DNA of 52,789 bases from Arenibacter nanhaiticus (GTDB lineage: Bacteria > Bacteroidota > Bacteroidia > Flavobacteriales > Flavobacteriaceae). The notes under the pieces were generated by a model. That model did not search any database. It saw only the letters and a program-made list of their open reading frames with translations, and had not been told where the DNA came from. Below, piece after piece: positions 17,128 to 51,569 of the stretch. The stretch spans positions 1-52,789 of the forward strand of contig NZ_FQYX01000028.1 of assembly GCF_900141935.1 (NCBI RefSeq), in the 5' to 3' direction. Position 1 is the stretch's first letter, and every line of letters starts with the position of its first letter. The translations under genes were made by a program, and so were the position numbers.

Positions 17128-17131
17128 ATCG

Positions 17132-18558: not shown

Positions 18559-18589
18559 AGAGGGTGCTACATTTTGGGCAACGCCCTCT
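18559..18589 (+). terminator. Hairpin with T-run between ssb and the DUF6876 gene
   Basis: AGAGGGTG (18559-18566) pairs with CGCCCTCT (18582-18589) through one G-T wobble, and TTTTTCTTTT follows on the + strand. As a + strand terminator it would protect against antisense transcription. On the - strand it could reduce read-through from ssb into the DUF6876 gene. Confidence 0.45.
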
Positions 18590-18622
18590 TTTTCTTTTCT
18601 GGTACCATTGGTTGCTGTTCTT

Positions 18623-29217: not shown

Positions 29218-29221
29218 AGCC

Positions 29222-31399
29222 CTACAGTTGATTTTGGATTAGATTATAATACTTCCCTTTACCTTCAATTAATTCCTGATGGTTTCCTTGTTCTACGATC
29301 TTCCCTTTATCCATCACTAAAATCTGATCGGCATTACGGATCGTAGACAACCGATGGGCAACAATAATTACTGTTTTCCCTTTATAAAACGATTTTAAAT
29401 TCTCTGTAATAACCGACTCATTTTTAGCATCCAACGCACTTGTTGCCTCATCAAATAAAAGGACGTCCGGGTTTTTATAGATAATTCTTGCAATTAATAA
29501 TCGTTGTTTTTCACCACCACTTAGGATACTGCCATTCTCACCTATTTTTGTATCTAAACCTAAAGGAAGGTTCTCGATTAGATCGTTGAGATTGGCCTTA
29601 CTCACGGCTTCTTGCAACCGCCTTCTGTTTGTTGGCTCATTAGCTTTTGATTCTGTAATATTTCTCTCTAAGGTATCATTGAATAACATACTATCTTGAA
29701 GAACCGCACCACAATTCTCCCGCCACCTTTTCGTGTTTATGTATTTTAAATTCTCCTTACCTATAGTTACTTTTCCATTTTTAGGCTCGTAAAGTTTTAG
29801 AAGAATTTTAAAAAGAGTAGTTTTCCCAGAACCGCTGGCACCAACAATTGCAGTTACCTTATCTATTGGAATAGTTGCGTTGATATTATCTAACACCCTA
29901 TGGGTGTCTTTTTCTCCATATCCAAAAGCTAAGCCTGTAAAAACAATATCCCCTCTTACTAGAACATTCTCTTTATTTATTGGAATGCTCCCCAATTCCT
30001 GAGAATGAATCTCAGATAGGCGTTTCAATGAAAGAGTTGCTCTTTGTAATCCGATTATAAAATCCAAGGTATTTGATATGGGTATTGAAAGACTCCCTAC
30101 GATGAATTGAATAGCTAACATGGTCCCTAATGTAATTTCCCCAAACACCACTGCCTTTGCCGACCAAAAAATTATAAATATACTGGTCATTTCATTAAGG
30201 AATAAACCTCCTTTTAACTGTACTTGATCTACTTTTAAAAAATTGGTTTTTAATCTATATAACCTTATTTGCACATTTTTCCATTCCAATTTCCGGCGTC
30301 TTTCAGATCCATTGAGCTTTATTTCTCGTACAGCTGTTATCAATTGAATCAATAAGGATTGTTCCTTCATGTTCAAGTTAAATAGCTTATGATCCAATAG
30401 AGCTTTATGTTTTAAAAAAAGAAAGGTCCACCCCATAAAGAGTAAGTTTCCCATCAGGAAAATTATCAATATTTCCATATTGAAATAACCCAATACCATA
30501 GCAAAAACAAGGATACTAAATAAATCGAAAGCAATGGACAGAGAACGTCCGCCCAAAAACTCCTCTATTCGATGATGGTCATTGATTCGCTGCATAAAAT
30601 CCCCAGTAGATTTGGAGTCAAAATATGCTATAGGCATTAGCATCAATTTATCCAAAAAATCCGAAATCATCGATATGTTAATCTGGGTTGACATATGATG
30701 TAAAAGCCAGTCTCTTATGACCTCAGATATTAGCCGGGTTATAAAAAGAAATACTTGAGCGATAACAATCAATTGTATAAAGCTGATGTTTTCAAAGTCA
30801 ATACCATAATCTACAAGACTCTGCGTTAATAAAGGAAGTGACAATTGAATTATTGCGGCTAGGAAAAGACCAAGACATAGTTGTCCGATGTAATCTTTAA
30901 AAGGCAATAAATACTGGTACAAGAAGCTTAGACTATTATCGGACTTAGCTTCATCTTGAAAATGGTTAAACTTAAGCTTAGGTTCCGCTAATAAAAGGAT
31001 GCCCTTTCCATTTTTCTTGGCCGCCCACCTTTCCGAAAATTCAGAATGACTATACTTGGAAAGACCAATAGCTGGATCCGAAACATAAATGGTCTTTTTT
31101 GTTGTCTTATAAACCACTAAAAAGTGATTATTCTCCCAGTGTGCAACAGCAGGTAATGGAATGTCATTCACTAACTCTTTAATATCCGATCGTATCCCTA
31201 TGGCTTCCATACCGATCATATCTAAGGCTTCAGATAGCCCTGCCATGGACACTCCCCCATTTTGTAAGCTAGATATTCTTCTGAGATAATCTAGGTTAAA
31301 ATCTTTACCGTAATGTTTGGCTATGATTTTTAAGCATGTAGGACCGCAATCCATTTGATCGAGTTGACGATAATTGGGAAATATCACGGTTCCAAGCAT
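29222..31399 (-). CDS. C39-peptidase-containing ABC exporter (bacteriocin/peptide secretion)
   Basis: 725 residues. The N-terminal C39 protease domain has the catalytic Cys18 in MDCGPTC, His92 in NHFLVVY and Asp108 in SDPA. Transmembrane segments follow at about residues 160-430. The nucleotide-binding domain has Walker A GASGSGKTT, the signature LSGGEKQR, Walker B LLFDEATSALD and the H-loop AHRLST. It removes a double-glycine leader and exports the core peptide across the inner membrane. It is the first gene of the operon, and the predicted substrate is the small peptide encoded at 25984-26112. Confidence 0.93.
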   Translation of the reverse strand: MLGTVIFPNYRQLDQMDCGPTCLKIIAKHYGKDFNLDYLRRISSLQNGGVSMAGLSEALDMIGMEAIGIRSDIKELVNDIPLPAVAHWENNHFLVVYKTTKKTIYVSDPAIGLSKYSHSEFSERWAAKKNGKGILLLAEPKLKFNHFQDEAKSDNSLSFLYQYLLPFKDYIGQLCLGLFLAAIIQLSLPLLTQSLVDYGIDFENISFIQLIVIAQVFLFITRLISEVIRDWLLHHMSTQINISMISDFLDKLMLMPIAYFDSKSTGDFMQRINDHHRIEEFLGGRSLSIAFDLFSILVFAMVLGYFNMEILIIFLMGNLLFMGWTFLFLKHKALLDHKLFNLNMKEQSLLIQLITAVREIKLNGSERRRKLEWKNVQIRLYRLKTNFLKVDQVQLKGGLFLNEMTSIFIIFWSAKAVVFGEITLGTMLAIQFIVGSLSIPISNTLDFIIGLQRATLSLKRLSEIHSQELGSIPINKENVLVRGDIVFTGLAFGYGEKDTHRVLDNINATIPIDKVTAIVGASGSGKTTLFKILLKLYEPKNGKVTIGKENLKYINTKRWRENCGAVLQDSMLFNDTLERNITESKANEPTNRRRLQEAVSKANLNDLIENLPLGLDTKIGENGSILSGGEKQRLLIARIIYKNPDVLLFDEATSALDAKNESVITENLKSFYKGKTVIIVAHRLSTIRNADQILVMDKGKIVEQGNHQELIEGKGKYYNLIQNQL

Positions 31400-36173: not shown

Positions 36174-37175
36174 ATGGCAAACAGCAAACACGCACATTTA
36201 AGATATAATATTCTAGACTATTGCTTTCGTTATAGATCACTCAGTTTTGAAGAATTATTAGAGGTTGTTAATGAAGGTATTGCCGAACTTTATCCAGGAG
36301 AAGGAATATCTGAGCGATCTCTGAGAAAAGATTTAAGAGTTTTCCGAGATGATAAAAAAGGTTTTAATGCGCCATTACCAGAAAAAATAAGAATTTTAAA
36401 ATATTCAGATCCAAAATTTTCTATTGCTCAGCGCCCTTTATTAGAATATGAACAGTATTTAATTGATGCCGCGCAGCAGTTATTAAGTCGTTTTGAAAAT
36501 CATCCGAAGTATGATAGACTCGCGGAAGCTTTGATCAAGTTTCAGGATGAAGAAGATCCAGAAACTGACATCTCCAAAATTCTATATTACGACCTAAACG
36601 AAGAATATAAAGGTATTCAACATCTGAAACCCCTTTATTTAGCTATTAAGAAAAAGGAGGTTCTTCAGATAACATATAAAGGGTTCAAAGATCAGGAATC
36701 GAGAGTTTTTATATTTCATCCACATTTACTAAAACAATATAACAGAAGGTGGTTTGTATTTGGGCTAAATAGTTCGAAAGGGATTAAAGAATGGAGTATT
36801 CCTTTAGATGAAAGACTTATTGGTTTTAAAGTTATTGAAGATATGGAATATCTCGAGTCAGATACGGACTGGGATAATTTTTTTAGAACGATGGTAGGCG
36901 TTGTAAGACTAGTTGATGCAGAGGTTGAGAAAGTTGTCTTACGTTTCCATAATGGCAGAGAAAACTATTTTAAAACAAAACCATTTCAACCGGATTACGA
37001 GGAGTTTTTTGAGGAAGATAAACAAAATCAAGTTTGGTTTGAAACAATTATAAATAATGAATTGATACAGCAAATATTATCTTATGGTCAAGATGTTGAG
37101 GTTTTGCTACCAGAACATTTAAAAACGAAAATGAGCGAACATGTAAAGACTATGCAGGAGTTTTACAACACGTAA
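36174..37175 (+). CDS. WYL-domain transcriptional regulator of the defence island
   Basis: 333 residues. An N-terminal winged helix at about residues 5-70 has LRYNILDYCFRYRSLSFEEL and GISERSLRKDLRVFRDDK. The central WYL fold at about 150-240 has LQITYKGFKDQESRVFIFHP and RRWFVFGLN, where WFV stands in place of the usual WYL signature. A WCX-like C-terminal region runs to the end. WYL proteins sense ligands and often repress defence genes such as BREX and CBASS. It is transcribed in the same direction as the genes that follow and may bind the dyads upstream of 37236, 40904 and 50713. Confidence 0.85.
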   Translation: MANSKHAHLRYNILDYCFRYRSLSFEELLEVVNEGIAELYPGEGISERSLRKDLRVFRDDKKGFNAPLPEKIRILKYSDPKFSIAQRPLLEYEQYLIDAAQQLLSRFENHPKYDRLAEALIKFQDEEDPETDISKILYYDLNEEYKGIQHLKPLYLAIKKKEVLQITYKGFKDQESRVFIFHPHLLKQYNRRWFVFGLNSSKGIKEWSIPLDERLIGFKVIEDMEYLESDTDWDNFFRTMVGVVRLVDAEVEKVVLRFHNGRENYFKTKPFQPDYEEFFEEDKQNQVWFETIINNELIQQILSYGQDVEVLLPEHLKTKMSEHVKTMQEFYNT

Positions 37176-37212
37176 CTGTGCAATTACTTTGCGCAATTAA
37201 ATTGTTTATTTG
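37174..37212 (+). promoter_or_regulatory. Promoter with dyad upstream of the methyltransferase-kinase gene
   Basis: TGTGCAA (37177-37183), five bases and TTGCGCA (37189-37195) form an imperfect dyad. Nine bases later, TTTATTTG (37205-37212) matches TAnnTTTG at seven of eight positions. The whole arrangement, counted from AACT, aligns without gaps to the regions at 40839 and 50647. The dyad spans the expected -33 region, so a bound repressor would block polymerase. Confidence 0.65.
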
Positions 37213-37235: not shown

Positions 37236-39689
37236 ATGCGAGAAGAAAATTATATAGAAAATGAAGAGGTAAAAAGGATCACCGAATCCCTTTGGCAATT
37301 AATAAGTAGTCTGCGTGGGGTTTTACCAGTTGAACAACATCACGTGGTTCTTTTTCTAATGTCAGCGTATTATGATGGTATAATTGGTGAAGAACTTATA
37401 AAGGGAGAGGTTGATTATGAAGATTTTTTCTATGCTTTAGAAGATGATTATAGATACTGTGACTTGTTAAAAGTTTATAAGCCTATAATAAATGCCATAC
37501 CGGAATGGCCTTTGGAAGTTATAATTAGACGGCTTTCGATAATAGATAGTGACCTTTCTGAATCTGTATTTAATCGAATTTTCGATAATCTTTTGTTCAA
37601 AATAGCAAGTAATCAGGGTAAACATTCAGGAGAATTTCTACTTCCTACTGAGGTCAGTAAATTAGTTATGGAATTAGTAAATATTCCAACTAGAGCTAAG
37701 GTCTTTAATCCGTTTGCTGGACTAGCTTCTTTTGCCACATATCTTGATTATGCAGAAAGTTATTACGGACAAGAAATTAGTGATTCTACTTGGGCATTAG
37801 GTAAATTGAGACTACTTAGGTTAGAAAAATCCAGAACTTTTAATATCGATTACAGGATTGAGGATTCTATAAATAACTGGCCGGAATTCAAGGCTTTTGA
37901 CTTAATAGTATCTAATCCGCCATTTAATTATAAAATTGATTCTTTTATCGCAGATCAATTTGGCTGGAAGAGAATGAATGTTGAAACCTATGTAATTAAA
38001 AAAGGATTAGAGTCTATAAATTTTGATGGGAAAGTCGCTTGTGTGATTTCTCAAGGACTACTTTTCAGAGGTGGTGAAGAGCAAAAATTTAGAAAATATT
38101 TAGTTGAGGAAGGATTGATAGAAACCATTGTTTCATTACCTGGTGGAATTTTAAAGCATACGGGAGTCCCTGTATGTATACTGATCTTAACTCGAAAGAG
38201 AAATTCTAATCGATTAATTAAAATGATTGAAACTTCCTCTTTTATAAATAATGAAAATAACCGAGAGAAACATCTTGACGTAGTCAGATTACTTGATTAT
38301 TCAAATGAATTTAATCGTTCTAAAGCAGTTATAGAGGTATCAATCGATCAAGTAAGGCAACACCACTATAATTTAAATATTAAAAGATATTTTGTAGAAG
38401 ATTTTAATGGTATTCCACTTATCGAACTAGTAAAGACAATAAGAGGACAAAGAGTAGGTAATGAAAGTAGAACTACGGGAAAATTTGTTCGTACTAGTAA
38501 CCTTAAAGATAATGATGTTTCCTATCAATTAGAGCTAGATGAAATAAAGGAAATAGAGCTTCCTTCCTATTCTAGTAGGATAGAAAGTGATTGTATTCTT
38601 GTTTCTACGAGATGGAAATCTCTTAAACCTACCTTATTTGAATATAAAGGTGCGCCAATCTACATTGGAATGGACTTGCTTGCTATTAAAGTAGATTCGA
38701 ATAATTTTGAAGTTGACCCTCATTATTTAATAAGCGAATTAAGATCGACAAAAGTTCTTAAGCAAGTAGCAGCATTCCAAAACCCTGGCGCTATAACGTT
38801 CTTAAATAGGAACGATTTTTTTGAAATTAAGATTGATTTACCAACTATTGAGGAGCAAAGAGCTAAGGTCAAGGGTATATTAGATCTTTCTGAAAAATTT
38901 AAAGCACTTCAAATGGAGAGAAATGCGCTAGCCCACGGACAGCAAGTTGCAAATTTCGACGAATTTGCTTCTTTAAAACACTCTTTAGGAGCCCCTAGAC
39001 AAAACATTTTGTCTAATGCTAAAAGTTTAATCCGTTTTTTTGAGAATAATCATTCTGATGCATTTAAGGAAGTTTCGGAATTATACAATAAGCGTTACAA
39101 CACTAATTTAGTCGATGATTTGATTCAAATAAAAGATGATGTTAATCACATCTCTACAATTCTTGAAAAGGGTGAGAATGGATTGACTTTAGACAATTTT
39201 GATCTAAAGTCAATATCAATACAAGAAATTGATAAGGCACTAAAAGCAACAAGAAAAGTTAGAGAGAAATATAAACCTCAATATAAAGAACCCCTTATTT
39301 CTGAAATTTCGGGAAAGGCTATAAAAGCAAATATCACTTTGTTCAAGATATTAATTAATAATATTTTATCAAACGCTGATAAGTATGCATTCAATTCAAA
39401 AGATAACGCAAATCAGTTAATTATTGAATTAAAAGCTACAGAGGATGTTTTAGAATTAGAAATTAGAAACAATGGCACACCATTTCCAAACAACTTTAGT
39501 AAAGATAAATTTATATCAAAATTTACTACCATCAGCCTAGATAACGGTTCAGGTCTAGGTGGATATGACATTAATAGAATTGCCAAATATTTTGAAAACC
39601 CAGATTGGGAATTAGTATTAAATAATAACGATGTTTTTCCTGTTGTGTTTAGATTCACGTTCCCTATAATCCCAATGATAAATGAGTAA
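37236..39689 (+). CDS. N6-adenine methyltransferase fused to a specificity-like domain and a histidine-kinase-like module
   Basis: 817 residues. Residues about 1-330 resemble HsdM: FNPFAGLASF (157-166) is a motif I variant and SNPPF contains the catalytic NPPF (227-230). Residues about 410-560 look like an HsdS target-recognition half, ending FFEIKIDLPTIEEQRAKVKG. Residues 575-817 look like a histidine kinase: LKHSLGAPRQNI with phosphoacceptor-like His582, an N-box NILSNADKYA (Asn713), RNNGTPFP in place of the G1 box and GSGLGG (771-776). A DNA methyltransferase on the same chain as a sensor kinase is unusual. It overlaps the receiver gene by eight bases, so the two should be made together. 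Confidence 0.82.
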   Translation: MREENYIENEEVKRITESLWQLISSLRGVLPVEQHHVVLFLMSAYYDGIIGEELIKGEVDYEDFFYALEDDYRYCDLLKVYKPIINAIPEWPLEVIIRRLSIIDSDLSESVFNRIFDNLLFKIASNQGKHSGEFLLPTEVSKLVMELVNIPTRAKVFNPFAGLASFATYLDYAESYYGQEISDSTWALGKLRLLRLEKSRTFNIDYRIEDSINNWPEFKAFDLIVSNPPFNYKIDSFIADQFGWKRMNVETYVIKKGLESINFDGKVACVISQGLLFRGGEEQKFRKYLVEEGLIETIVSLPGGILKHTGVPVCILILTRKRNSNRLIKMIETSSFINNENNREKHLDVVRLLDYSNEFNRSKAVIEVSIDQVRQHHYNLNIKRYFVEDFNGIPLIELVKTIRGQRVGNESRTTGKFVRTSNLKDNDVSYQLELDEIKEIELPSYSSRIESDCILVSTRWKSLKPTLFEYKGAPIYIGMDLLAIKVDSNNFEVDPHYLISELRSTKVLKQVAAFQNPGAITFLNRNDFFEIKIDLPTIEEQRAKVKGILDLSEKFKALQMERNALAHGQQVANFDEFASLKHSLGAPRQNILSNAKSLIRFFENNHSDAFKEVSELYNKRYNTNLVDDLIQIKDDVNHISTILEKGENGLTLDNFDLKSISIQEIDKALKATRKVREKYKPQYKEPLISEISGKAIKANITLFKILINNILSNADKYAFNSKDNANQLIIELKATEDVLELEIRNNGTPFPNNFSKDKFISKFTTISLDNGSGLGGYDINRIAKYFENPDWELVLNNNDVFPVVFRFTFPIIPMINE

Positions 39690-40839
39690 AAAATATAATG
39701 TGCTGTGGATTGATGACCAGCATAAAGATCTATCTGCCGTTCATAAAACAGCTACGGATTTTGATATTCAACTATGGCCATTCAAATCAATGAATGGCGG
39801 TTGTGGAGAACTTGAAGCTAATCTTTCAAAGTATGACGCTATTTTGTTAGATGCAAAATTTTTTGAAAATGAAGATGATAAACCAGGTTCTGAAGATACC
39901 CAATGGATATATGATACAAAGGACAGAATACGCGATCTTGATAAATCTCTACAATACTTTGTTTTAACTGGTCAAGCCAAAACATATGCTTCAGAAGAAT
40001 TTAATAAAGCGTTTAAAAATGTATTTGAAAAAGGAAAAGACGAAGACGAAGATACGTTGTTTAAAATGCTTGTACAAGCTTGTCAAAATAGGGAATTAAC
40101 AAGACTAAAGCATAAATACAAGAAACAGTTTGAAATTTGTACCGATGCATATATTGGGTCAAAACATTTTGATAGAGTTATAGACATTATAAAAGATGTA
40201 GAGAATCCAGAAAAAATTAAGGTAGCCCAAGATATGCTAAATCCTATGAGGAAAATTCTTGAAGCTCTTTTTGATAAGCTAAACGAAATAGGATTAATAC
40301 CTGACGAGATTAGAAAAAAACAAGGGAGCTTAAATGGATCAAGTTATTTTCTTTCTGGAAATAATCATAATTATGAGTACCATAGCGAATTGATTCATCC
40401 CATGGTTGCCGAGAATATTTATCGACTGTTAAATATAACTCAGGACGGTTCTCATGATAACGGAAAAAAACTAAGAGCGGATGAGTATCTATCTTTAAGC
40501 AAAAATCATAAGCTTTATAAGAGCACTATTTATCTGCTACTGGATATTCTCGAATACATGAAAGATTTCTTAGATGAGAATACAGATAAGAATCTTAATC
40601 AAGAGAAATGGGAAGTAAGAAAGTTTACTGCGACAATAGATTCTATTTCCGGGAAAGTGATAGAAATTCAAGATAGTGGCTGGGGTGTTTTTGAATCAGA
40701 TGATAAAACTAAGACAATTAAAATTCCTGATTATATGATGGAAAAACACAAATTAAAGCTTGATCAAATTATAAAAGCAACAACGAAACCAAGTCCGGAC
40801 GGAACAAGAACATACATTGACGAAATTTTCATCGAATAA
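39682..40839 (+). CDS. Response-regulator protein paired with the methyltransferase-kinase
   Basis: 385 residues. The first about 120 form a receiver domain with all key residues: acidic D11 and D12 in LWIDDQ, the phosphoacceptor D57 in AILLDAK, T96 in FVLTGQ and K117 in VFEKGK. The rest is not a known DNA-binding output. It has a helical region at about 150-300 with RLLNITQDGSHDN, which recalls HEPN/DUF4145-type domains, and a C-terminal OB-like strand region at about 310-380 (KFTATIDSISGKVIEI, GWGVFESDDKTKTI). An RNA- or protein-directed output is therefore possible but not shown. The start overlaps the kinase stop. Confidence 0.8.
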   Translation: MSKKYNVLWIDDQHKDLSAVHKTATDFDIQLWPFKSMNGGCGELEANLSKYDAILLDAKFFENEDDKPGSEDTQWIYDTKDRIRDLDKSLQYFVLTGQAKTYASEEFNKAFKNVFEKGKDEDEDTLFKMLVQACQNRELTRLKHKYKKQFEICTDAYIGSKHFDRVIDIIKDVENPEKIKVAQDMLNPMRKILEALFDKLNEIGLIPDEIRKKQGSLNGSSYFLSGNNHNYEYHSELIHPMVAENIYRLLNITQDGSHDNGKKLRADEYLSLSKNHKLYKSTIYLLLDILEYMKDFLDENTDKNLNQEKWEVRKFTATIDSISGKVIEIQDSGWGVFESDDKTKTIKIPDYMMEKHKLKLDQIIKATTKPSPDGTRTYIDEIFIE

Positions 40840-40877
40840 ACTCTGCAATCACCCTGCACACTTCAATCTTACATTTG
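40839..40877 (+). promoter_or_regulatory. Promoter with dyad upstream of the DUF2130 gene
   Basis: TCTGCAA (40842-40848), five bases and CTGCACA (40854-40860) form a weaker copy of the dyad. Nine bases later TACATTTG (40870-40877) is a perfect TAnnTTTG -7 box, 27 bases before the ATG at 40904. The spacing is identical to that at 37174 and 50647. Confidence 0.65.
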
Positions 40878-40903: not shown

Positions 40904-42184
40904 ATGAGTAAGAATACAAATGTAAAATGCCCTAATTGTAAAGAGGTTTTTAAAGTAGATGATAGTGTCTACACAGACATCGTTAGGCAGGTAAGAGACC
41001 AGCAATTTCAAGAAGAGTTGAACAATCGATTAGAGTCTGTTAATATAGAAAAGCAGACTGCATTACAATTAAAAGAGTCTGAATTAAAAATTGCTTTCCA
41101 GCAACAGTTGGCAGAAAAACAGCGTGAAATAGAAGCATTGAAACACAAAAGTAGATCAGAGCTAGTTGATGAGGTTTCAAAAAAAGAAAATACTATTAAA
41201 GATTTAGAGTCCAAATTACAGCAGGCTGAAAATGAAAAAAAACTAGCATTACAAACAGCGGTAAATGAACTTGAAAAAGAGAAGAATCAATTACAAAATG
41301 ACTTAAAACTCAAGGAGTCTGAAAAAGAAAATTTAGAAAAGTCCTTACAACAAAATTTTAGAAGAGAGTTAGATCATAAAGCAAAGGAATTACAATTAAA
41401 AGACGAAGAAATAGAACGTCTAAAGGACTATAAGCAAAAGCTTTCAACTAAAATGCTAGGAGAGACTTTGGAGCAACATTGTGAAACCGAGTTTAACAAA
41501 CTAAGAGCCACGGCATTTCAAAAAGCATATTTCGAAAAAGACAACGATGCTTCTCAGGGCACTAAAGGTGATTATATCTTCAGAGAGAAAGATGAAAATG
41601 ATAATGAAATCGTTTCAATTATGTTTGAAATGAAGAATGAAAACGACCTAACAGCTTCCAAAAAGAAAAATGAAGATTTTTTCGCCAAGTTAGATAAAGA
41701 TCGTAGAGATAAAGGCTGTGAATATGCCGTATTGGTTTCTTTATTAGAAACAGATAATGAATTGTATAACACCGGAATTGTAGATGTATCCTACAAGTAT
41801 GAGAAAATGTATGTGGTGCGTCCTCAGTTTTTTATTCCTATTATTACACTTTTAAGAAATGCTGGGATGAAGTCTTTACAGTACAAGGCCGAACTAAAAC
41901 TAGTTAGAAACCAGAATGTTGACATTACTAATTTTGAGGAAAAAATCAACGAATTTAAAACTGGCTTTGCAAGAAACTACGATTTAGCTAGTCGACAATT
42001 TAAAACCGCTATAGATGAGATTGACAAAACCATGAATCATCTACAAAAAACCAAGGATGCTTTATTATCATCTGTAAATAATCTACGTTTGGCGAACAAC
42101 AAAGCAGATGATTTAACCATTAAGAAGTTAACCCATGGTAATCCAACCATGAAACTAAAATTTAACAATTTAAACAGCAATTAG
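40904..42184 (+). CDS. DUF2130-family protein (predicted PD-(D/E)XK-type nuclease fold)
   Basis: 426 residues. A zinc-ribbon-like CPNCKEVF opens the protein, followed by a long coiled coil at about 40-185 rich in Lys, Glu and Gln. The conserved core at about 200-330 has KGDYIFRE and IMFEMKNEN, which resembles the D...ExK metal site of restriction-like nucleases, and then [20 protein letters not shown]. The tail is again coiled. DUF2130 proteins are often found with type I restriction and other defence genes. It has its own dyad promoter and is followed 12 bases later by hsdM, so it may be the first gene of that operon. Confidence 0.8.
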
Positions 42185-42196: not shown

Positions 42197-43678
42197 ATGA
42201 TCACTGGAGAAACAAAAAGTAAAATAGATAAAATTTGGAATGACTTCTGGACAGGAGGAATATCCAACCCATTAACTGTAGTGGAGCAGTTTACCTATCT
42301 AATCTTTATAAAGCAATTAGATGATAAGCAGATTCTAATGGAAAAGCAGGCCAACCTTTTAGGGGTGCCTATCGATAAACCAATCTATACTAAAGAACAA
42401 AGCCCGTTGCGCTGGAGCAACTTTAAAAATAAGGATCCAGAAACAATGTTCGACTTGTTTACAAAGCAACAGCGCGAGCTTAACGATATAACGGCTTTCG
42501 ACTTCATGAAAACTATCGGAGCTGAAGGTGGTGAGTTTGCGCGGTTTATGAAAGGGGCAATTTTCATGATTCAATCTCCGAGGTTATTGGATAAGGTGGT
42601 GCAACAAATAGACCAACTGCCTTTAGACAACAGAGATACTAAAGGGGATCTTTACGAGTATATGCTGTCTAAAATTGCCGAAGCAGGTACCAACGGACAG
42701 TTCCGTACGCCACGCCATATTATTAGTATGATGGTGGAAATGACACAGCCTAAAAAGGATGATATTATTTGCGACCCCGCCTGTGGTACGGCGGGCTTCT
42801 TAGTGAGTGCTGGAGAGTATATTTATCATAACCACAACGACTGGTTTCAAGACAAAACCTTTAGAGAACATTTTAATACCAAGATGTTTAACGGTATTGA
42901 GTTCGACCCGTCTATGTTGCGTATTGCTGCTATGAATATGCAATTGCACGGTATGGAAACGCCAGTGCTTATTGGTAAAGATGCTTTGAGCGAAGCGAAT
43001 GCTGATATAGAAAACGAATACACGCTTATTTTAGCAAACCCGCCGTTTAAAGGAAGTTTGGACTATGATGAGGTAGAGAGTAGTTTATTGCAAACTACCA
43101 AAACGAAGAAAACAGAACTATTGTTTTTAAGTTTAATGTTACGCACCCTAAAAGTTGGAGGACGTGCAGCGGTAATTGTACCAGATGGAGTTTTGTTTGG
43201 TAGTTCTAGAGCACATAAGAGCATACGAGAAGAGTTGGTAAATAACCAAAAACTTGAAGCGGTAATATCTATGCCTTCTGGGGTATTTAAACCGTATGCA
43301 GGGGTAAGTACAGCGGTATTGTTTTTTACCAAAACCAACTCTGGGGGTACGGATAAGGTATGGTTTTATGATATGAAAGCCGATGGGTATAGTTTAGACG
43401 ATAAGCGTTCTGAGATTAAAGACAATGATATTCCTGATATTATTGAACGTTTTAAAAATTTAGAAGCGGAAACGGATAGAGTACGTACAGATCAAAGTTT
43501 TATGGTACCTTCTAAGGAGATTAAAGAGAACGATTGGGATTTATCTATTAACCGTTATAAGGAAATTGTTTATGAGGAAATTGAATATGATGAACCACAG
43601 GTGATAATTGATTCAATAAAAGATATAGATAATGTAAGAACCAATGCTATACTAAATTTAGAAGAGTTGTTAAAATGA
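42197..43678 (+). CDS. hsdM: Type I restriction-modification methyltransferase subunit
   Basis: 493 residues. The N-terminal helical domain has WNDFWTGGISNPLTVVEQFT, typical of HsdM. S-adenosylmethionine motif I is DPACGTAGFLVSAGEY at about residues 194-209, preceded by GQFRTPRHI; the catalytic motif is ANPPFKGS. It methylates adenine at the site chosen by HsdS, marking host DNA. The stop overlaps the HsdS start (ATGA), so the two are translationally coupled. It is a complete, ordinary HsdM, in contrast to the hybrid methyltransferase at 37236. Confidence 0.95.
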   Translation: MITGETKSKIDKIWNDFWTGGISNPLTVVEQFTYLIFIKQLDDKQILMEKQANLLGVPIDKPIYTKEQSPLRWSNFKNKDPETMFDLFTKQQRELNDITAFDFMKTIGAEGGEFARFMKGAIFMIQSPRLLDKVVQQIDQLPLDNRDTKGDLYEYMLSKIAEAGTNGQFRTPRHIISMMVEMTQPKKDDIICDPACGTAGFLVSAGEYIYHNHNDWFQDKTFREHFNTKMFNGIEFDPSMLRIAAMNMQLHGMETPVLIGKDALSEANADIENEYTLILANPPFKGSLDYDEVESSLLQTTKTKKTELLFLSLMLRTLKVGGRAAVIVPDGVLFGSSRAHKSIREELVNNQKLEAVISMPSGVFKPYAGVSTAVLFFTKTNSGGTDKVWFYDMKADGYSLDDKRSEIKDNDIPDIIERFKNLEAETDRVRTDQSFMVPSKEIKENDWDLSINRYKEIVYEEIEYDEPQVIIDSIKDIDNVRTNAILNLEELLK

Positions 43679-44823
43679 TAGAGGAAGTTGAATTAGGTAA
43701 AATAGCATCGTTTAGTCAAGGACAACAAGTTTCAATCCCAGATCAAAGAAAAGAAATGTTTGATGGATGTGATACTTTTATTAGAATAATAAATTATACT
43801 CAAGGGTCTTCTGACTTCAGATATATTCCAAAACAAAATCCAAAATATCACATAACAAAACATGATATTATTATGGTGAGGTATGGTGCTGTTGGATTTG
43901 TTGGTAAAGGCATTGAAGGGGTATTGGCTAATAATATGTTTAAGATTGATTACGATAAACAAGTATTGTTTGGTGATTATTTATTTCGTGCTCTAAGGAG
44001 TGGGAAAGTTCAATCTCAACTAATTAGTGCTTCTCAAAGCACTTCGATGGCAGCTTTAAATTTTAAAACTGTTTCAAGGGTTAAAATCCCCCTTCCCCCT
44101 CTAGAAACCCAAAAGAAAATAGCGGCCATTCTAGACGAAGCAGATAAACTTCGCCAACTAGACAAACGACTCATTGAAAAATATGACGCCCTTACACAAA
44201 GTCTATTTTTGGATATGTTTGGGGATTTAGTTGGAGAAAAAGAAAGTTTAAGTAGTCTTTGTGAAATTAATCCCAAGAAGTCTGAAATATCTAATTTAGA
44301 TAAATCAACTTTAGTATCTTTTATTCCGATGAGTAATGTTTCAGAAAAAGGAGAAGTTGATTTATCAATTGAAAAAACAATAGATGAGGTTTGGAGTGGA
44401 TTCACATATTTTGCAGAGCGGGATGTTGTATTTGCTAAGATTACACCTTGTATGGAAAATGGTAAAGGGGCTATTATGAGGTCTTTGACTAATGGTATTG
44501 GTTTTGGAACCACTGAATTTCACGTTTTAAGACCTAAAGAAAATAAATCATCATCAGAATGGATTTACCATTTAACCACATCTTATCACTTTAGGAAATT
44601 AGCTGAGAATAACATGAAAGGAAGTGCTGGTCAAAAGCGTGTACCAACAGATTTTTTTAAAAGATTTAAAATAGTTTGTCCTCCAATCGAGCTCCAGAAC
44701 CAATTCGCAGAACGTGTTGAAGCAATAGAAGCCCAAAAAGCATTAGCTCAAAAAAGCTTAGAAAAAAGCGAAGAATTGTTTAATAGCTTATTGCAAAAGG
44801 CGTTTAAAGGAGAGTTGGTTTAA
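43675..44823 (+). CDS. hsdS: Type I restriction-modification specificity subunit
   Basis: 382 residues with two target-recognition halves. The first ends in VSRVKIPLPPLETQKKIAAI and the coiled coil ILDEADKLRQLDKRLIEKYD, the second in FKIVCPPIELQNQFAERVEA and the coiled coil AQKALAQKSLEKSEELF. This two-half plan reads a bipartite DNA site and holds two HsdM subunits. The family's GxxxR-type and FxxxQ sections are seen (FSQGQQVSIPDQ, SGKVQSQLISASQS). The recognised sequence cannot be deduced. It starts within the hsdM stop and is followed by a small gene after nine bases. Confidence 0.93.
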   Translation: MIEEVELGKIASFSQGQQVSIPDQRKEMFDGCDTFIRIINYTQGSSDFRYIPKQNPKYHITKHDIIMVRYGAVGFVGKGIEGVLANNMFKIDYDKQVLFGDYLFRALRSGKVQSQLISASQSTSMAALNFKTVSRVKIPLPPLETQKKIAAILDEADKLRQLDKRLIEKYDALTQSLFLDMFGDLVGEKESLSSLCEINPKKSEISNLDKSTLVSFIPMSNVSEKGEVDLSIEKTIDEVWSGFTYFAERDVVFAKITPCMENGKGAIMRSLTNGIGFGTTEFHVLRPKENKSSSEWIYHLTTSYHFRKLAENNMKGSAGQKRVPTDFFKRFKIVCPPIELQNQFAERVEAIEAQKALAQKSLEKSEELFNSLLQKAFKGELV

Positions 44824-44832: not shown

Positions 44833-45225
44833 ATGGATAGCAAAGATTGGTTATTAGAGCAGCTAAAAGTTGCCTACCAAAAATCAGATATAAGTCAGAC
44901 AGGTGCATTTATAGATCTAGTAGATATACCCTATAAAGGTATTAGTATTAAGCATAGTAATGGCTTATACATTAGTTTCAAACATTTTGACCTGGTTGAA
45001 TTTTATGCTTTGTCAATCTATTTAGAATCTCGTATAAAACAAGAGGATATTAGAGTGTATTGCAAAGAGTATGACAAAAGTATTTGGGTTTACTTTGATA
45101 AGAAATTTACTGAAGGGAGTAAAGGAGATTTTGAAAAAGCCATGTGGACTTTTAAAATAATAGATAATCTAATTAAAGATATCACCAATGTGGTAATCAA
45201 GGTAGGAAGTGATGAAGTTAAATAG
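44833..45225 (+). CDS. Hypothetical protein between hsdS and the DUF262 gene
   Basis: 130 residues, not recognised. No signal or membrane segment is present. A beta-strand pattern appears (FIDLVDIPYKGISIKHSN, GLYISFKHFDLVEFYALSI, RVYCKEYDKSIWVYFDKK), then a helix at about 95-110 and WTFKIIDNLIKDITNVVIKV. The start lies nine bases after hsdS and about 55 bases separate it from the DUF262 gene, so it belongs to the same run of genes. A small accessory or inhibitor protein is one possibility, but nothing in the sequence shows it. Confidence 0.55.
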   Translation: MDSKDWLLEQLKVAYQKSDISQTGAFIDLVDIPYKGISIKHSNGLYISFKHFDLVEFYALSIYLESRIKQEDIRVYCKEYDKSIWVYFDKKFTEGSKGDFEKAMWTFKIIDNLIKDITNVVIKVGSDEVK

Positions 45226-45281: not shown

Positions 45282-47078
45282 ATGGATATTCAAAAATATA
45301 ACGTCAATCAGCATCTTATAGAAACCCTTTTATCTTGGATTAAAAGCGGTGAAATTGCTATCCCAGAAATTCAACGTCCATTTGTTTGGGATGGTGCTAA
45401 AGTAAGGGACTTAATGGATAGCTTATACCAGGGATACCCAATAGGTTATATTATTACCTGGCGCAATCCTAACATTAGGCTTAAAGATGGATCTACATCA
45501 GAAGGCAAAAAAATCCTAATAGACGGGCAACAACGCGTTACCGCCTTAACGGCTGCTATTCTCGGAGATTATGTAATTAACAAAAATTATAAGCGCGTTA
45601 GAATTAAAATAGCTTTTAATCCTATACAAGAAAAGTTTGCCGTACAAACACCGGTTATTGTTAAGGATAAGCAATGGATTCCAGATATTTCAAAAGTCCT
45701 GAGTGGACAAATAAATTCATTTAATTTTACCAATGACTTTATAAATAACAACCCAGATCTTAATCAAGATGATATAGTGCGCGCTATTAACAAATTATTC
45801 AATTTGGCTAAAAAACAAATTGGGCTTATTGATTTAGCAGCAGATCTGGATATAGAAACGGTAACAGAGATCTTTATTCGTATTAATTCACAAGGCGTTA
45901 TTTTAAGTCAGGCAGATTTTGTTATGAGTAAAATTGCTGCTAATGAAACTTTTGGCGGGCAGGAACTTAGGAAGGCTATAGATTACTTTAGTCATTTGGC
46001 AGTTGCTCCCGAGTTTTATCAATTCATTGCAGAACATGATACCGATTTCGCCAAGACAGACTATTTCCAAAAAATGTCGTGGTTAAAAAATGAAAGTGAA
46101 GATCTTTATGACCCTAAATATACAGACGTTTTAAGGGTAGCTTTTACTACACAGTTCAATAGAGGTAAACTGTCTGACTTAGTTAGCCTACTTTCTGGAA
46201 GAAATTTTGAAACTAGAACCTATGAAGAGGAAATAGCTGAAGCTTCTTTTAAGAAACTTTCTAATGGTATTCATCATTTCATTAATGAGACCAATTTTAA
46301 ACGGTTTTTGATGATCATAAAATCTGCCGGATTCATTACTTCTAAAATGATACGGTCTCAAAATGCTATAAACTTTGCATACATTGTTTATCTCAAATTA
46401 AAAGCACAAGGGGAAAACCCAGCCAATATCGAAACCTATGTACGTAGGTGGTATGTGTATTCCGTATTAACGGGTCGTTATTCTGGTTCACCTGAATCTA
46501 TGTTTGATTTTGATATTAGACAGATTGAACTAAAATCATTTAAGGATTATTTGCAAGAAAAAGAAGACGGAGAATTATCACAAGCTTTTTGGAATGCTTC
46601 TTTAGTCCAAAGTTTAAACACCTCCGTTACGAGTAGTCCTTATTTTCATGTGTATTTAGCAAGTCAAGTTAGAGCTAATGATAAAGGGTTCTTATCTAAA
46701 GAAATCACGGTGGGAGATTTACTTACTTACAGGGGTGACATACACCATATCTTTCCAAGAAACTATCTTAAAAAAGCAGGGTTACCAAGAGGAAAATACA
46801 ATCAGATTGCTAATTATGTGTATATGCAGCAAGAGGTAAACATTAAAGTAGGTGCCAAAGCTCCTTCAGTTTACTTTGGTGAGATATTAGACCAGTGCAA
46901 TGGGAGTCTATTAAAATATGGTGGTATAAATGAATTGGATGAACTAAAAATAAATTTAATCCAAAACTGTATTCCTGAGTCAATATTTACTATGAATATT
47001 GACCATTACGACGAGTTTCTTCTATTAAGAAGAAAGTTAATGGCGAATAAGATGAGGGAGTATTATTTTAGTCTTTAA
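45282..47078 (+). CDS. DUF262 protein with C-terminal HNH-type (DUF1524-like) domain
   Basis: 598 residues. The N-terminal DUF262 (ParB/sulfiredoxin-like) fold has IPEIQRPFVWDGAKVRDLMD and the nucleotide motif DGQQRVTAL at about residues 81-89. A helical middle follows, and the C-terminal part has DIHHIFPRNYLKKAG near 487-500 with the tandem His and Asn of an HNH/DUF1524 nuclease. This is the plan of GmrSD and related type IV restriction enzymes that cut modified phage DNA. It sits between hsdS and hsdR, so a second restriction activity may be built into the type I locus. The chain is one polypeptide. Confidence 0.85.
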   Translation: MDIQKYNVNQHLIETLLSWIKSGEIAIPEIQRPFVWDGAKVRDLMDSLYQGYPIGYIITWRNPNIRLKDGSTSEGKKILIDGQQRVTALTAAILGDYVINKNYKRVRIKIAFNPIQEKFAVQTPVIVKDKQWIPDISKVLSGQINSFNFTNDFINNNPDLNQDDIVRAINKLFNLAKKQIGLIDLAADLDIETVTEIFIRINSQGVILSQADFVMSKIAANETFGGQELRKAIDYFSHLAVAPEFYQFIAEHDTDFAKTDYFQKMSWLKNESEDLYDPKYTDVLRVAFTTQFNRGKLSDLVSLLSGRNFETRTYEEEIAEASFKKLSNGIHHFINETNFKRFLMIIKSAGFITSKMIRSQNAINFAYIVYLKLKAQGENPANIETYVRRWYVYSVLTGRYSGSPESMFDFDIRQIELKSFKDYLQEKEDGELSQAFWNASLVQSLNTSVTSSPYFHVYLASQVRANDKGFLSKEITVGDLLTYRGDIHHIFPRNYLKKAGLPRGKYNQIANYVYMQQEVNIKVGAKAPSVYFGEILDQCNGSLLKYGGINELDELKINLIQNCIPESIFTMNIDHYDEFLLLRRKLMANKMREYYFSL

Positions 47079-47175: not shown

Positions 47176-50100
47176 ATGCAAAGTAATTTCGATTTTATTA
47201 AGGATGATTTTCACGAACTATATATCCAATCTGCGGAGGCAGAAAAATACGTGTTTAAAGCGCCTAAATATGCAGCACTTCAATGTAGAATTGTATTAGA
47301 GCTGACTTTAAACTGGTTATACGACAACGACCCAGATTACGAAAGACCTTATGATACTACTTTAGCGGCTTTAATGTACCATGATGACTTTAAAAATGAT
47401 ATAAAAGGAACATTACTAAACGAGCTAACCTTAGTTAGAAGAATCGGTAATAACGCGGCGCACGGTAAAAGAGTTAATAACAAAGAAGCGCTAATCTGTC
47501 TTAGAAGTATCTTTAGACTTCTCTCCTTTATTGGGATTAATTATAACGAGGAAAGCCCAGATATTCCACTATTCAATGAGGCATTAATACCTACAGGGGA
47601 ACTTAACGATAAAACTGTAAAAGAGCTTCAAGAGAAATCTGAAGCTATTGAGAAACTATTAGCAGAGAAAAACAAACAACTGGAAAGAACACTTGAACTT
47701 CAAAAGGAAAACGAACTTCTAAGGCTGCAAGTACAACAACATCAAAAACAACTTAAGGAGCGTAAAGAAGAACGCCAAATTGATGTAGATTTTGAAGAGA
47801 AAATCCCAGAGCTAACCTCAGAAATTGAAACCCGTAAATTGTTCATAGATGTGTTGCTTAAAGAAGCAGGTTGGGATAATCTTAAGCAGCATAAAGATTT
47901 AGAGTATAAAGTGACAGGAATGCCCAAAACCGTTAATCCTTCTGGTGTTGGTTATGTAGATTATGTGCTTTGGGATGATAATGGAATGCCCTTGGCCGTT
48001 GTAGAGGCTAAAAAAACACTACACAGTCCTAAAAATGGGAAGCACCAAGCATTCTTGTATGCTAACTGTTTAGAGGCGATGACAGGGCAAAGACCTATTA
48101 TCTTTTATACTAACGGATTTGAAACGCATGTATGGGATGATACTTTTTATCCTGAACGGGAAGTTAGCGGATTTTATACCAAGGATGAACTTCAGTATTT
48201 AATAGAGCGCAGAAGTACTAGAAAAGATTTAAGAGAGTTTCAAGTCAATAGAGATATTGCTGGCCGCCCCTATCAGCTAGAAGCCATTAAAAGAGTTGCT
48301 GAAGCCTTGGTAACAACAAGCCAAAATGAGCTTAAAGGGAAAGGCAGAAAAGCTTTATTAGTAATGGCTACAGGTAGTGGTAAGACAAGAGTGTCCGCGG
48401 CTATTGTAGATATGTTAACCAAAAGCAATTGGGCCAAACGTGTATTGTTTTTGGCAGATAGAAATGCTTTGGTTACACAAGCAAAGAATGCTTTTAAAGA
48501 ACATGTTCCGCATTTAAGTGCTATAGACCTTACAAAAGAAAAAGAGGATAACGGAACTAGATTAGTGTTCTCCACATATCCAACCATAATGAACCGTATA
48601 GATAGTCTTAAAAATGAGGATGGTCGGTTTTATGGTCCAGGACATTTTGATGTAATTATTATTGATGAAGCCCATAGGTCTGTTTATCAAAAATACCGAG
48701 CAATTTTTGAGTATTTCGATGCTATTTTAATTGGGTTAACGGCTACGCCAAAAAAGGAAATAGATCATAATACCTATTCCTTATTTAATATTGAAGATGA
48801 TAACCCAACGTATGCGTATGAGCTTAATCAAGCTGTGCAAGATAAGTTTTTAGTGCCACCAAAGGCTATTAATGTGCCTGTTAAATTTGTCCATGAAGGT
48901 ATAAAGTACAGTGAACTTTCAGAAGAAGATAAACTAAAGTTTGAAGAAACTTTTACGGATGAGGTTTCAGAAGATGATGAAGATATAGAAATTAGTAAAT
49001 CTGCTATCAATTCATTTTTGTTTAATAACAAAACCATTGATGATGTCCTAGATTATCTAATGAATAACGGGATTAAGGTAGAAGGCGGAGATAAGTTAGG
49101 GAAAACGATCATTTTCGCTAAAAATCATAAACATGCTGTTTTTATTGAAAAGCGCTTTAATAAAAACTATCCTGAGTATTCTGGAAAGTTTTTACGTGTT
49201 ATAGATAATTATGAATCTAAAGCACAGGATTTACTTGAAAAATTCTGTGAAGACAAAGTAGAATTAGAACCGCAAATAGCTGTGTCTGTAGATATGATGG
49301 ACACCGGTGTAGATGCACCAAGAGTGGTTAATTTAGTGTTTTTTAAACAGGTAAAGTCCTATGCCAAGTTTTGGCAAATGATTGGTAGAGGAACACGTTT
49401 AAGGCCAGATTTGTTTGGTCCTAGCATAGACAAAGAGCACTTTATGATATTTGACATTTGTGACAACTTCAGCTTTTTTAATGAGTTTCCAGACGGAATT
49501 AAAGGAACCGCAACCAAAACGTTATCTCAAAAAGTATTTGAAGCCAAATTAAATATAATAATAGCTGTTAGAGATAATACTGAGTCAACACCCGAAGAGG
49601 ATGAACTAGCGGAAAACTACACCAACCAACTTCATGAAATAATTAATAGTCTAGACCAGGAAAGATTTGAGGTTAGAAAGCATTGGTCTCATGTAACCGA
49701 ATTTAGCAGTCGAGAGCGATGGAATAATTTAAGTGTTGGCGATGTGCTTGATTTAAGTACTAACCTATCTGGATTGGCACCTTACAATGAAGATGATGAT
49801 GAGTTAGCTAAAAGATTTGATCTTTTGGCGCTCAACTTACAATTAATGATTCTCTCTGGAAATAAAAAAGGAGAAGAGGTTTACGTAAAACAAATTTATG
49901 GTATAGCTAATAGCCTAGAGAAGAAAAGGAATATTCCAAAGGTTAAAGAAAAACTACCATTAATTAGGCAGATTCAGGAAGTAGAGTTTTGGAAGAATAC
50001 CAATGTAAATGTGGTAGAACATATTAGAATAGAGTTAAGAGAATTACTGAAATTTATAGAAAAGCAAGAAGTTAAAACAGTCTATACCGATTTTGCAGAT

Positions 50101-50616
50101 GAAATTCAGCTTAATAAAGTGGAAGAGGTAGATATAATGCCAACGTATTCAAGATTAAAAAGTTATAAGGACAGGGTAGAGGCATTTATAAGGAAAAATA
50201 AATCTCATTTGGTGATAGATAAACTTCATAAAAATATTCCTATCACTCCTAAAGAATTAGAGTTGTTAGAATCATTCTTATTCAATTACGAATTAGGTAC
50301 TAAAGAAGAATATGAAAAAGAATACGGTACGCAACCTTTAGGTAAATTCATCCGAGGCATCGTTGGATTGGATATTGAAGTAGTTAATAACTTATTTGCA
50401 AACTTCATTGAAGATGAAAATTTAAATCCGGTACAAATTACCTTCATACAGACCCTCATTAATTATCTCAACAATAATGGGACACTCGATAAAAAACTAT
50501 TGACACAGCCACCATTTAATGAAGCCAGTGATAATGGCATAATTGGTTTGTTTGAAGACAATAAGGTACGAGAAATAGTATCTATTATAGACCAAGTCAA
50601 TAATAATATTAGTTAA
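47176..50616 (+). CDS. hsdR: Type I restriction endonuclease subunit
   Basis: 1146 residues. An N-terminal DUF4145-type domain has VRRIGNNAAHGKRV near residue 90. A coiled coil follows at about 150-205. The PD-(D/E)XK nuclease domain has DYVLWDDNGMPLAVVEAKK at about residues 262-280, with Asp and ExK. The SF2 helicase core has Walker A ATGSGKT near 398, DEAH near 496, TATPKKE near 517 and a C-terminal RecA half with GRGTRLRPDL. It uses ATP to translocate DNA and cuts at a distance from the HsdS site. It is intact, so the type I system can be functional. Confidence 0.94.
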   Translation: MQSNFDFIKDDFHELYIQSAEAEKYVFKAPKYAALQCRIVLELTLNWLYDNDPDYERPYDTTLAALMYHDDFKNDIKGTLLNELTLVRRIGNNAAHGKRVNNKEALICLRSIFRLLSFIGINYNEESPDIPLFNEALIPTGELNDKTVKELQEKSEAIEKLLAEKNKQLERTLELQKENELLRLQVQQHQKQLKERKEERQIDVDFEEKIPELTSEIETRKLFIDVLLKEAGWDNLKQHKDLEYKVTGMPKTVNPSGVGYVDYVLWDDNGMPLAVVEAKKTLHSPKNGKHQAFLYANCLEAMTGQRPIIFYTNGFETHVWDDTFYPEREVSGFYTKDELQYLIERRSTRKDLREFQVNRDIAGRPYQLEAIKRVAEALVTTSQNELKGKGRKALLVMATGSGKTRVSAAIVDMLTKSNWAKRVLFLADRNALVTQAKNAFKEHVPHLSAIDLTKEKEDNGTRLVFSTYPTIMNRIDSLKNEDGRFYGPGHFDVIIIDEAHRSVYQKYRAIFEYFDAILIGLTATPKKEIDHNTYSLFNIEDDNPTYAYELNQAVQDKFLVPPKAINVPVKFVHEGIKYSELSEEDKLKFEETFTDEVSEDDEDIEISKSAINSFLFNNKTIDDVLDYLMNNGIKVEGGDKLGKTIIFAKNHKHAVFIEKRFNKNYPEYSGKFLRVIDNYESKAQDLLEKFCEDKVELEPQIAVSVDMMDTGVDAPRVVNLVFFKQVKSYAKFWQMIGRGTRLRPDLFGPSIDKEHFMIFDICDNFSFFNEFPDGIKGTATKTLSQKVFEAKLNIIIAVRDNTESTPEEDELAENYTNQLHEIINSLDQERFEVRKHWSHVTEFSSRERWNNLSVGDVLDLSTNLSGLAPYNEDDDELAKRFDLLALNLQLMILSGNKKGEEVYVKQIYGIANSLEKKRNIPKVKEKLPLIRQIQEVEFWKNTNVNVVEHIRIELRELLKFIEKQEVKTVYTDFADEIQLNKVEEVDIMPTYSRLKSYKDRVEAFIRKNKSHLVIDKLHKNIPITPKELELLESFLFNYELGTKEEYEKEYGTQPLGKFIRGIVGLDIEVVNNLFANFIEDENLNPVQITFIQTLINYLNNNGTLDKKLLTQPPFNEASDNGIIGLFEDNKVREIVSIIDQVNNNIS

Positions 50617-50646: not shown

Positions 50647-50685
50647 AACTGTGCAATTATCTTGCATAGTGCTGTTGTATTATTG
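50647..50685 (+). promoter_or_regulatory. Promoter with dyad upstream of the interrupted helicase gene
   Basis: TGTGCAA (50650-50656), five bases and TTGCATA (50662-50668) form the dyad. Nine bases later TATTATTG (50678-50685) matches TAnnTTTG at seven of eight positions. The 15-base block AACTGTGCAATTA is identical to that at 37174. The ATG follows at 50713. Confidence 0.65.
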
Positions 50686-50712: not shown

Positions 50713-51539
50713 ATGACTGCATATCAAAATTTTTGGGACAATGAAATTGAAACACTTCTTCAGCAATTAAATGCACCTCAGTCTCTCGAGGATAATATTA
50801 TTGATACTCTTAGGAGTTCTAAAAGAACAGGAATTTTTCCTAACCAAATAATAAATGCGTTAAGAATTGGACTTTCAGCAAAAGAAGGTAATCAAAACAT
50901 GGCATTTGTTGCGTCTATGCAGAGCTGGAAATCTGGAACAATCTATTTTTTATGTAATTATGTTTTACCGGCAATAGGGTTAATCAAGGAGTATGAGTCG
51001 ATACTTTTTGTAACTAGTATGAGAGATACAGATTTGTATGATCAAAATTGCCGAGTGCTAGAGCGGGAATATTTTGATTGCGTAACTGGTGATATGAAGC
51101 CTTCGGTATTAAAGGTCATGAAAATGAGCGACTTTTTCAATCACCCTAACCCACATAAAGTAGTTAATGAATATGATGTGCAGTTGATTGTTCGCGATGA
51201 AGATCAATATGGTTCCGGAATAGAATCTTCTTTTGAATTAGCCTTTTTTTCAGAATTGAGATGTCGTATTCCGGATATAAAACTTTTAGCTGTAAGTGCA
51301 ACTCCATATGATATTTTAGATGCTCAATTTACCGGTGCGTCTGATGTAGATGTAATTGTAGGTGTTAGACCACCAGAATATTACGGTATTTCCGAAATGT
51401 TAGAGGATGATGTAATTGAAGACATAGCTGAAGGGTTTAGGCCAATACAAGCTCAAGATGTTGATGGCGAAAAAATCTACACTATTCATCCTAAAACGGT
51501 AGAATATGTAAACTTTTTAAACACTTTTGACAGTGGGTT
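50713..51539 (+). pseudogene. Helicase-like ATPase gene disrupted by the IS3-family element
   Basis: About 275 codons are from the host gene; the open frame then continues 30 codons into the IS and stops at 51633. SF2-type motifs are seen: VASMQSWKSGTI at about residues 57-68, where a P-loop GKSGT would be expected but Trp replaces Gly; IVRDEDQYGSG near 155; and LLAVSATPYDIL near 195. The C-terminal RecA half is missing. Its promoter carries the same dyad as two other genes of the island, so it was part of that regulon. The remaining gene, if any, lies beyond the window. Confidence 0.72.
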
Positions 51540-51569
51540 TGGACTACCTAATAAATTTGGTACTATTTT

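Follow-up and report, generated by a model that had tools for sequence, protein, structure and literature searches.

A stretch of 52,789 nucleotides from the genome of Arenibacter nanhaiticus (hereafter the window) contains, beside the genes of a type I restriction system, two adjacent genes whose products appear to form a two-component system with an input of a new type. The first encodes a methyltransferase-head sensor histidine kinase, here called MTHK, and the second its response regulator. The reading that we favour, with a probability of about 0.6, is that the pair serves type I restriction systems as a two-component accessory which senses DNA or a DNA mimic. It is built on what can be read from sequence or predicted structure, namely the domains and their conserved residues, the pairing and co-evolution of the two genes, the absence of a catalyst from many heads, the decoupling of the pair from its companion restriction system, and a promoter box. 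To our knowledge the input module of MTHK has no counterpart, and the pair would be the first two-component system with a restriction-modification enzyme as its sensor.

In the working that we propose, the kinase would be a half-size type I modification enzyme, with a single M domain, a single half-specificity module and an HsdS-type helix, to which a histidine kinase module is attached; in the kinase dimer two of these heads would be arranged as in an M2S complex. The heads would engage a ligand, most probably DNA or a protein resembling it, upon which the HsdS-type helix would move, His582 would become phosphorylated and the phosphate would pass to Asp57 of the regulator, whose output would run through its helical domain (R190, H258) and a nucleic-acid-binding OB tail. 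The system as a whole would be cytoplasmic, its head would read and need not methylate, and the pair would serve type I systems in general as a portable accessory, not tuned to its neighbour's sequence and expressed from a WYL-repressed promoter common to defence genes. Whatever the ligand is, it should occur in every type I context; three candidates would suit, namely DNA in a general state of some sort, an anti-restriction protein that mimics DNA, and S-adenosylmethionine (SAM). An unlikely though not fanciful elaboration is a phosphorelay guard, in which the head would be a type I decoy bound by phage DNA mimics of the Ocr or ArdA type, such binding would trigger the kinase, and the phosphorylated regulator would shut down the infection; a guard would explain why the head so frequently loses catalysis, why it stays constant and why it is found beside any type I system.

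Kinase, regulator and their pairing

Within MTHK an HsdM-like N6-methyltransferase (residues 106-390) is followed by one HsdS-like half-specificity module (395-540), an HsdS-type helix (538-566), helices bearing His582 (576-690) and an ATP-binding domain (695-810). This is the sensor-kinase architecture that a first-pass annotation, made from the DNA letters alone, had described, and both domains and conserved residues agree with it. Among 183 kinase relatives (sequences shorter than 700 amino acids having been excluded beforehand), His582 in the H-box-like stretch is kept in 182 and the N-box Asn713 in 181, while in the G boxes Gly773 and Gly775 are each kept in 182, Gly776 in 178 and Gly771 in 169. 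Moreover, a search of PDB profiles, bearing on the annotation's question of whether the C-terminus has a GHKL fold, gave 25 matches, all 25 of them sensor or histidine kinases by name. In six further, diverged relatives HATPase_c lies above the Pfam cut-off in L125, L127, L128, L129 and L131, and below it in L130.

The structure model of MTHK has helices at 576-604 and 625-646, with weak confidence around His582. Its best Foldseek match is the M-S chain of a type I enzyme in complex with Ocr (PDB 7eew, E 5e-23), an intact methyltransferase, aligned over the M domain and the specificity part. Superposition over the whole length is poor (root-mean-square deviation 23 Å over 479 residues), so the domain arrangement predicted for MTHK differs from that of 7eew, which, unlike MTHK, has no kinase; the match shows only that the modelled fold is the target of a DNA mimic such as Ocr. 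The fold matches listed fell on the methyltransferase-specificity part of MTHK and barely covered its kinase end.

The regulator comprises a receiver (residues 1-136, with D57, T96 and K117), a helical domain (~137-310) and an OB/cold-shock-like tail (~320-385). A receiver fold with the acidic pair, Asp, Thr/Ser and Lys is present by alignment, model and fold search, and the phospho-site residues, whose loss in homologues the annotation had named as counter-evidence to look for, are nearly invariant among regulator relatives (sequences below 280 amino acids, or below 270 in loci, being excluded). In the helical domain R190 and H258 are invariant in 182 of 182 regulators; the listed matches to the regulator model were to receivers only, so that this middle domain is barely covered. 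A scan of viral contigs with the regulator alignment found no relatives, and none of its 82 pattern matches was confirmed.

Homology searches returned 169 regulator and 516 kinase matches, of which 120 each were listed, the kinase search having scored only the 7995 candidates that shared most words. A scan of a single genome for each species found 65 loci, to judge by record titles all from Bacteroidota except one Fibrobacter assembly; together with the window they make a set of 66, which includes the broken L064 and the degenerate L065. The regulator stands directly downstream of MTHK in 61 of the 66, such that the two-gene pair the annotation proposed to seek in other genomes does recur. That the receiver is dedicated to this kinase, as had been claimed, is further indicated by identity matrices compared over the 44 loci with all genes (500 permutations each), in which MTHK and regulator correlate at r = 0.80, a value that no permutation reaches. 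Starting from the regulator, which occurs in 12 of 395 genomes of the class, an MTHK-like gene or piece adjoins it in 12 of 12 (partial in L112, as fragments, and in L116, at a contig end). Within the family, 6 of 249 genomes have MTHK at E ≤ 1e-60, which is a lower bound; L077 (G040) seemed at that threshold to have a WYL gene without MTHK, and a diverged MTHK and regulator were found on reading the region. The finding of no MTHK at other WYL loci is, at so strict a threshold, a weak statement.

A link to type I restriction, which the annotation drew from the window, extends to the wider set: HsdM is present in 46 of the 54 loci for which 8 kb or more of downstream sequence is available, and HsdM together with HsdS in 45. 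A WYL gene lies directly upstream of MTHK in 49 of the 66 loci and anywhere in the locus in 58. The arrangement recurs as well on a mobilizable Myroides plasmid, which carries, in this order, WYL, MTHK, regulator, HsdM, HsdS, two other genes and HsdR; a plasmid scan matched 3 of 72,556 records, all from Myroides. In the annotated record of this plasmid the genes appear as a WYL protein, an 'N-6 DNA methylase' and a 'hypothetical protein', labels that, at least in this one record, keep the pair hidden.

Reader or writer

The MTHK of the window keeps the NPPF of motif IV, the Asn of which, present in 148 of the 183 relatives, belongs to the catalytic NPP(Y/F/W) of the N6-methyltransferase class (PMC3874165, in the part available). 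As homologue lists and loci overlap, tree and counts were taken from a set made non-redundant at 80% (n = 99). This Asn is absent from 30 of the 99, and on a FastTree tree, built after removal of the surrounding columns, there are at least 20 changes of state, a count in which loss and regain are not separable. Both His582 and Asn713 are retained in 29 of these 30 (the exception is L065), and NPP(F/Y) is kept in all 50 HsdM proteins from the same loci, none of which lacks the catalytic Asn. Moreover, the acid of motif I is replaced by Asn in 182 of 183 relatives, and MTHK therefore lacks the DPxxG-type SAM motif I of type I methyltransferases, which is found in 47 of the 50 neighbouring HsdM (the other three have no match to the search pattern). 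Of the six diverged relatives, L127 keeps NPPL, and L125 and L128-L131 are without the Asn, having I, K or nothing recognisable at the site, while the kinase motifs persist in all six; at the N-terminus of those five, HARE-HTH was matched above the cut-off in one, below it in three and not in the fifth. Because the catalytic Asn is repeatedly absent while the phospho-residues of kinase and receiver are almost invariant, the head looks, from its sequence, like a reader rather than a writer.

The same matrices that join kinase and regulator separate them from the restriction genes. Between MTHK and the WYL protein r is 0.46 (0 of 500 permutations reach it), whereas between MTHK and HsdM it is 0.04 (155 of 500 as high) and between MTHK and HsdS -0.01 (285 of 500). 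Specificity modules of true HsdS proteins vary from system to system, and yet that of MTHK is as conserved as its methyltransferase part; between L029 and L031, for example, it is 86% identical while HsdM is 28% and HsdS 21% identical. Nor is the cognate HsdS the closest to the specificity region of MTHK, its median rank being 17.5 of 48, with first place in two cases. By these comparisons the kinase-regulator pair is one exchangeable unit and the restriction system is another.

It had been suggested in the annotation that the pair might report on methylation state, with the head as an active methyltransferase following the sites of the neighbouring system. This is improbable. Companions are swapped while the specificity region stays constant, and the Asn that every neighbour keeps is often gone from a head whose motif I is altered as well; the head thus cannot simply report the methylation state of its neighbour's sites. 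There is likewise only a small chance that the head senses SAM or its products, for instance the depletion of SAM by phage, and not DNA. Such sensing would be consistent with the invariance of Glu180 (183 of 183), which we take to be the residue that holds the SAM ribose, and with L130 and L131, in which the glycine loop is intact (DPxxGTGG) and NPPF is gone; however, the Methylase_S match is retained in all six diverged relatives (E ≤ 0.0033, two below cut-off), including L125 and L128, where motif I is not recognisable.

Palindromic box and WYL regulator

The promoter motif that the annotation saw as shared within the island recurs in other loci. Its consensus is TGCA-N7-TGCA with flanks CTrTGCA...TGCAyAG, it lies directly after the WYL stop codon, and it overlaps a Bacteroidota-like promoter, the TTTG element of which (presumably that of the Bacteroidota consensus) follows ~12-15 nt downstream of the box. 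Of 65 loci, 41 have the exact 8/8 core ahead of MTHK, against 0 of 65 shuffled sequences. The core stands before none of 63 regulator starts and none of 119 minus-strand genes, and before 1 of 55 WYL starts, 4 of 178 other genes upstream, 6 of 247 other genes downstream and 9 of the 59 genes that come first after the regulator; the contrast uses 8/8 only, because at 7/8 the background is high, with 18 of the 119 minus-strand genes. The first box of the window has 7 of the 8 core bases. Three boxes lie in the island of the window, one ahead of MTHK, one ahead of DUF2130-HsdM and one behind HsdR, and across the 4.36-Mb genome the exact core is found 40 times against 12 for a reversed control. 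Elsewhere boxes are found ahead of Druantia III genes (L021, L032, L043, where they stand on both sides of the Druantia III-like pair) or further genes.

The box goes with the WYL regulator better than with the kinase, as judged from its distribution. A second stretch of the same genome (L124, G000:C71:1985-12005) has the order WYL, box, a gene for 124 amino acids, HsdM, HsdS, reverse transcriptase, HsdR and box, without MTHK, and L126 (G209) has WYL and box with no MTHK in the 16.5 kb read, the rest of that genome having been searched only at E ≤ 1e-60. Among 30 WYL loci from the 249 family genomes, 14 have a box scoring at least 12 within 300 bp and 16 have none; nine of the 14 fall among the 25 with no MTHK found. 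In L125 the box is kept and the WYL protein is 74% identical to that of the window, while MTHK belongs to another branch, with a specificity region only 26% identical. Weighing against the link of box and WYL, five of the eight loci (of 66) without WYL in the available flank keep a box of at least 12 before MTHK (L020 31.0, L025 25.3, L060 19.2, L059 14.9, L026 12.1). These five would suit a kinase head that itself reads the box and controls the island promoter, as would the bipartite form of the box, with an adenine in each half, which is what a homodimer of half-HsdS modules would read; this is nonetheless quite improbable in view of the boxed WYL loci in which no MTHK was found, L124 and L126 among them, and of L125, whose box has been kept beside so different a specificity region.

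The WYL regulator has the WYL and WCX domains and the inverted repeat at defence promoters that mark a BrxR-like protein. In the part of the BrxR paper available, inverted repeats R-BOX1 and R-BOX2 stand at several promoters, with 11-bp arms and a 5-bp spacer (PMC9122601), and the association of box and WYL described here agrees with them. As far as that source goes, BrxR/CapW repressors and the WYL protein here both head defence islands with inverted repeats at several promoters; here, unlike in BrxR, the box has ~9-bp arms and a 7-bp spacer, and a kinase-regulator pair is additional.

As a separate observation, palindromes of the type CGCA-N7-TGCG were seen by eye upstream of WYL in L085, L086, L090, L091, L093-L095, L097-L099 and L101-L103, mostly ~60 bp before the WYL start and in genomes without a listed MTHK match, as though the half-site had changed along with the WYL subfamily.

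Counter-evidence, known systems and the island

That the C-terminus is instead a MORC- or Hsp90-type GHKL ATPase, using ATP mechanically and without a phosphorelay, is very improbable: HATPase_c is common to the GHKL superfamily and MORC-like ATPases associated with restriction-modification exist (PMC8011034, from the text accessible), but every PDB profile match is to a kinase by name, the H-box His is kept in all relatives but one, and a dedicated receiver has its phospho-site intact.

Several points do weigh against a DNA-sensing phosphorelay accessory. The motif IV Asn is kept by 69 of the 99 relatives, the window copy included, and some of these may still methylate. The family profiles that the annotation had recommended matched in part: Methylase_S was found in the six diverged relatives and HATPase_c in the window at 1.2e-5, just below the Pfam cut-off, whereas Pfam scans of the window pair gave no match for HisKA in the kinase or for Response_reg in the regulator (Response_reg has sub-cut-off matches in L119 and L120). 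The model is poor at the join, over most of 563-584 (block means 38-52), and does not establish one continuous helix from the specificity module to His582. Moreover, L065 has lost both His582 and Asn713, L064 is in pieces, and eight of the 54 loci with sufficient downstream sequence have no HsdM. Finally, a HEPN (DUF4145) RNase as the middle domain of the regulator found no support in hhalign (probability 2%); H258 is invariant, but the window regulator has no Arg 4-6 residues before it, as the RX4-6H motif of HEPN would require.

Two-component logic is known in phage defence from Detocs, which reportedly has a different sensor and effector design and no type I modification head. The annotation knew of no characterised system of this plan, and indeed a search of the open-access literature found, among its top results, no report in which an N6-methyltransferase is fused to a histidine kinase and accompanied by a receiver, subscription papers and bioRxiv being outside its scope. 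The available text of a 2025 review of restriction biology does not contain 'histidine kinase', 'two-component' or 'response regulator' (PMC12707154). The nearest published idea, so far as its accessible text goes, is that of the HEF_HK/Response_reg_2 pairs (PF19191/PF19192), which like the MTHK pair are soluble, kinase-like and receiver-like, adjacent, and enriched next to restriction-modification genes (PMC8011034). In that text no methyltransferase or specificity module is described for them, and they favour type II systems with C5 methylases, whereas the MTHK pair favours type I (PMC8011034). Neither family matches the window pair in Pfam at E ≤ 1, nor are they among the families listed for 30 regulators.

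That type I systems can have guards is known in principle: as restriction accessories that respond to phage inhibition, PrrC and PARIS resemble the proposed MTHK guard, to judge from the parts of both papers available (PMC2610378, PMC12707154). PARIS responds to the inhibition of restriction by phage (PMC12707154), and PrrC, which guards EcoprrI, is an anticodon nuclease held by the restriction enzyme itself (PMC2610378), whereas a phosphorelay with its own pseudo-enzyme head is proposed here. In the available portion of the DefensePredictor paper a figure legend names HATPase and REC without sequence, and the MTHK pair may overlap with one of its predicted systems (PMC13092281). If the favoured reading is right, the pair would be a general control or alarm unit common to unrelated type I systems in Bacteroidota, carried also on a mobilizable plasmid, and experiments on it could ask by what means a cell notices that its restriction system has encountered foreign DNA or is being blocked.

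Table 1. Features of the island, in window coordinates (PWM, position weight matrix).
Feature	Position	Strand	Evidence
WYL-domain transcriptional regulator, BrxR/CapW-like, first island gene	36174..37175	+	Pfam WYL 3.7e-6, WCX 2.3e-9
Palindromic box 1, TGTGCA-N7-TGCGCA form, overlaps presumed promoter of kinase-regulator pair	37175..37197	+	PWM score 20.7
MTHK, 817 amino acids	37236..39689	+	Pfam, alignment, predicted structure, PDB profiles
Response regulator	39682..40839	+	Alignment, structure model
Palindromic box 2, before DUF2130-HsdM-HsdS genes	40840..40862	+	PWM score 18.9
DUF2130 coiled-coil protein	40904..42184	+	Pfam 1.4e-88
HsdM, type I modification subunit, exchangeable companion	42197..43678	+	Pfam; identity-matrix comparison
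HsdS, type I specificity subunit	43675..44823	+	Pfam
130-amino-acid protein; no family match above cut-off	44833..45225	+	Family searches
GmrSD_N (DUF262) protein, candidate type IV restriction	45282..47078	+	Pfam 4.2e-32
HsdR, type I restriction subunit, N-terminal DUF4145 domain	47176..50616	+	Pfam
Palindromic box 3, before further gene 50713-51633	50648..50670	+	PWM score 23.3
Transposase open reading frame	51570-52460	-	Pfam rve

The gene behind box 3 has no Pfam match at 0.001, and its 3' end overlaps an insertion sequence, the rve-type transposase frame of which lies on the opposite strand. Genes after HsdR in L003 (587 amino acids) and L011 fall into one cluster with a gene at this position, of which they may be longer relatives. 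The DUF2130 protein follows the regulator in 7 of the 66 loci and precedes the kinase in L128 (2112-3368).

Other defence genes accompany the pair elsewhere. In L021, L023, L025, L032 and L043 there is a pair of proteins of ~1000 and 1970 amino acids, which in L021 are the DruH and DruE of Druantia III by PADLOC and in the other four are so grouped by size and clustering only. Between HsdS and HsdR, L002 has at 16823-18936 a DRT2-like reverse transcriptase (PADLOC 7.8e-130) and a gene for 193 amino acids whose cluster has members in six loci; the reverse transcriptase of L124, likewise between HsdS and HsdR, is of Pfam RVT_1, and a strong box follows its HsdR. Beyond the island, the window contains at 27928-31399 a Peptidase-C39 ABC exporter with an HlyD partner, a bacteriocin-type export pair, and at 1296-5711 a single open reading frame in which an AcrB-type pump is fused to an outer membrane efflux (OEP) domain.

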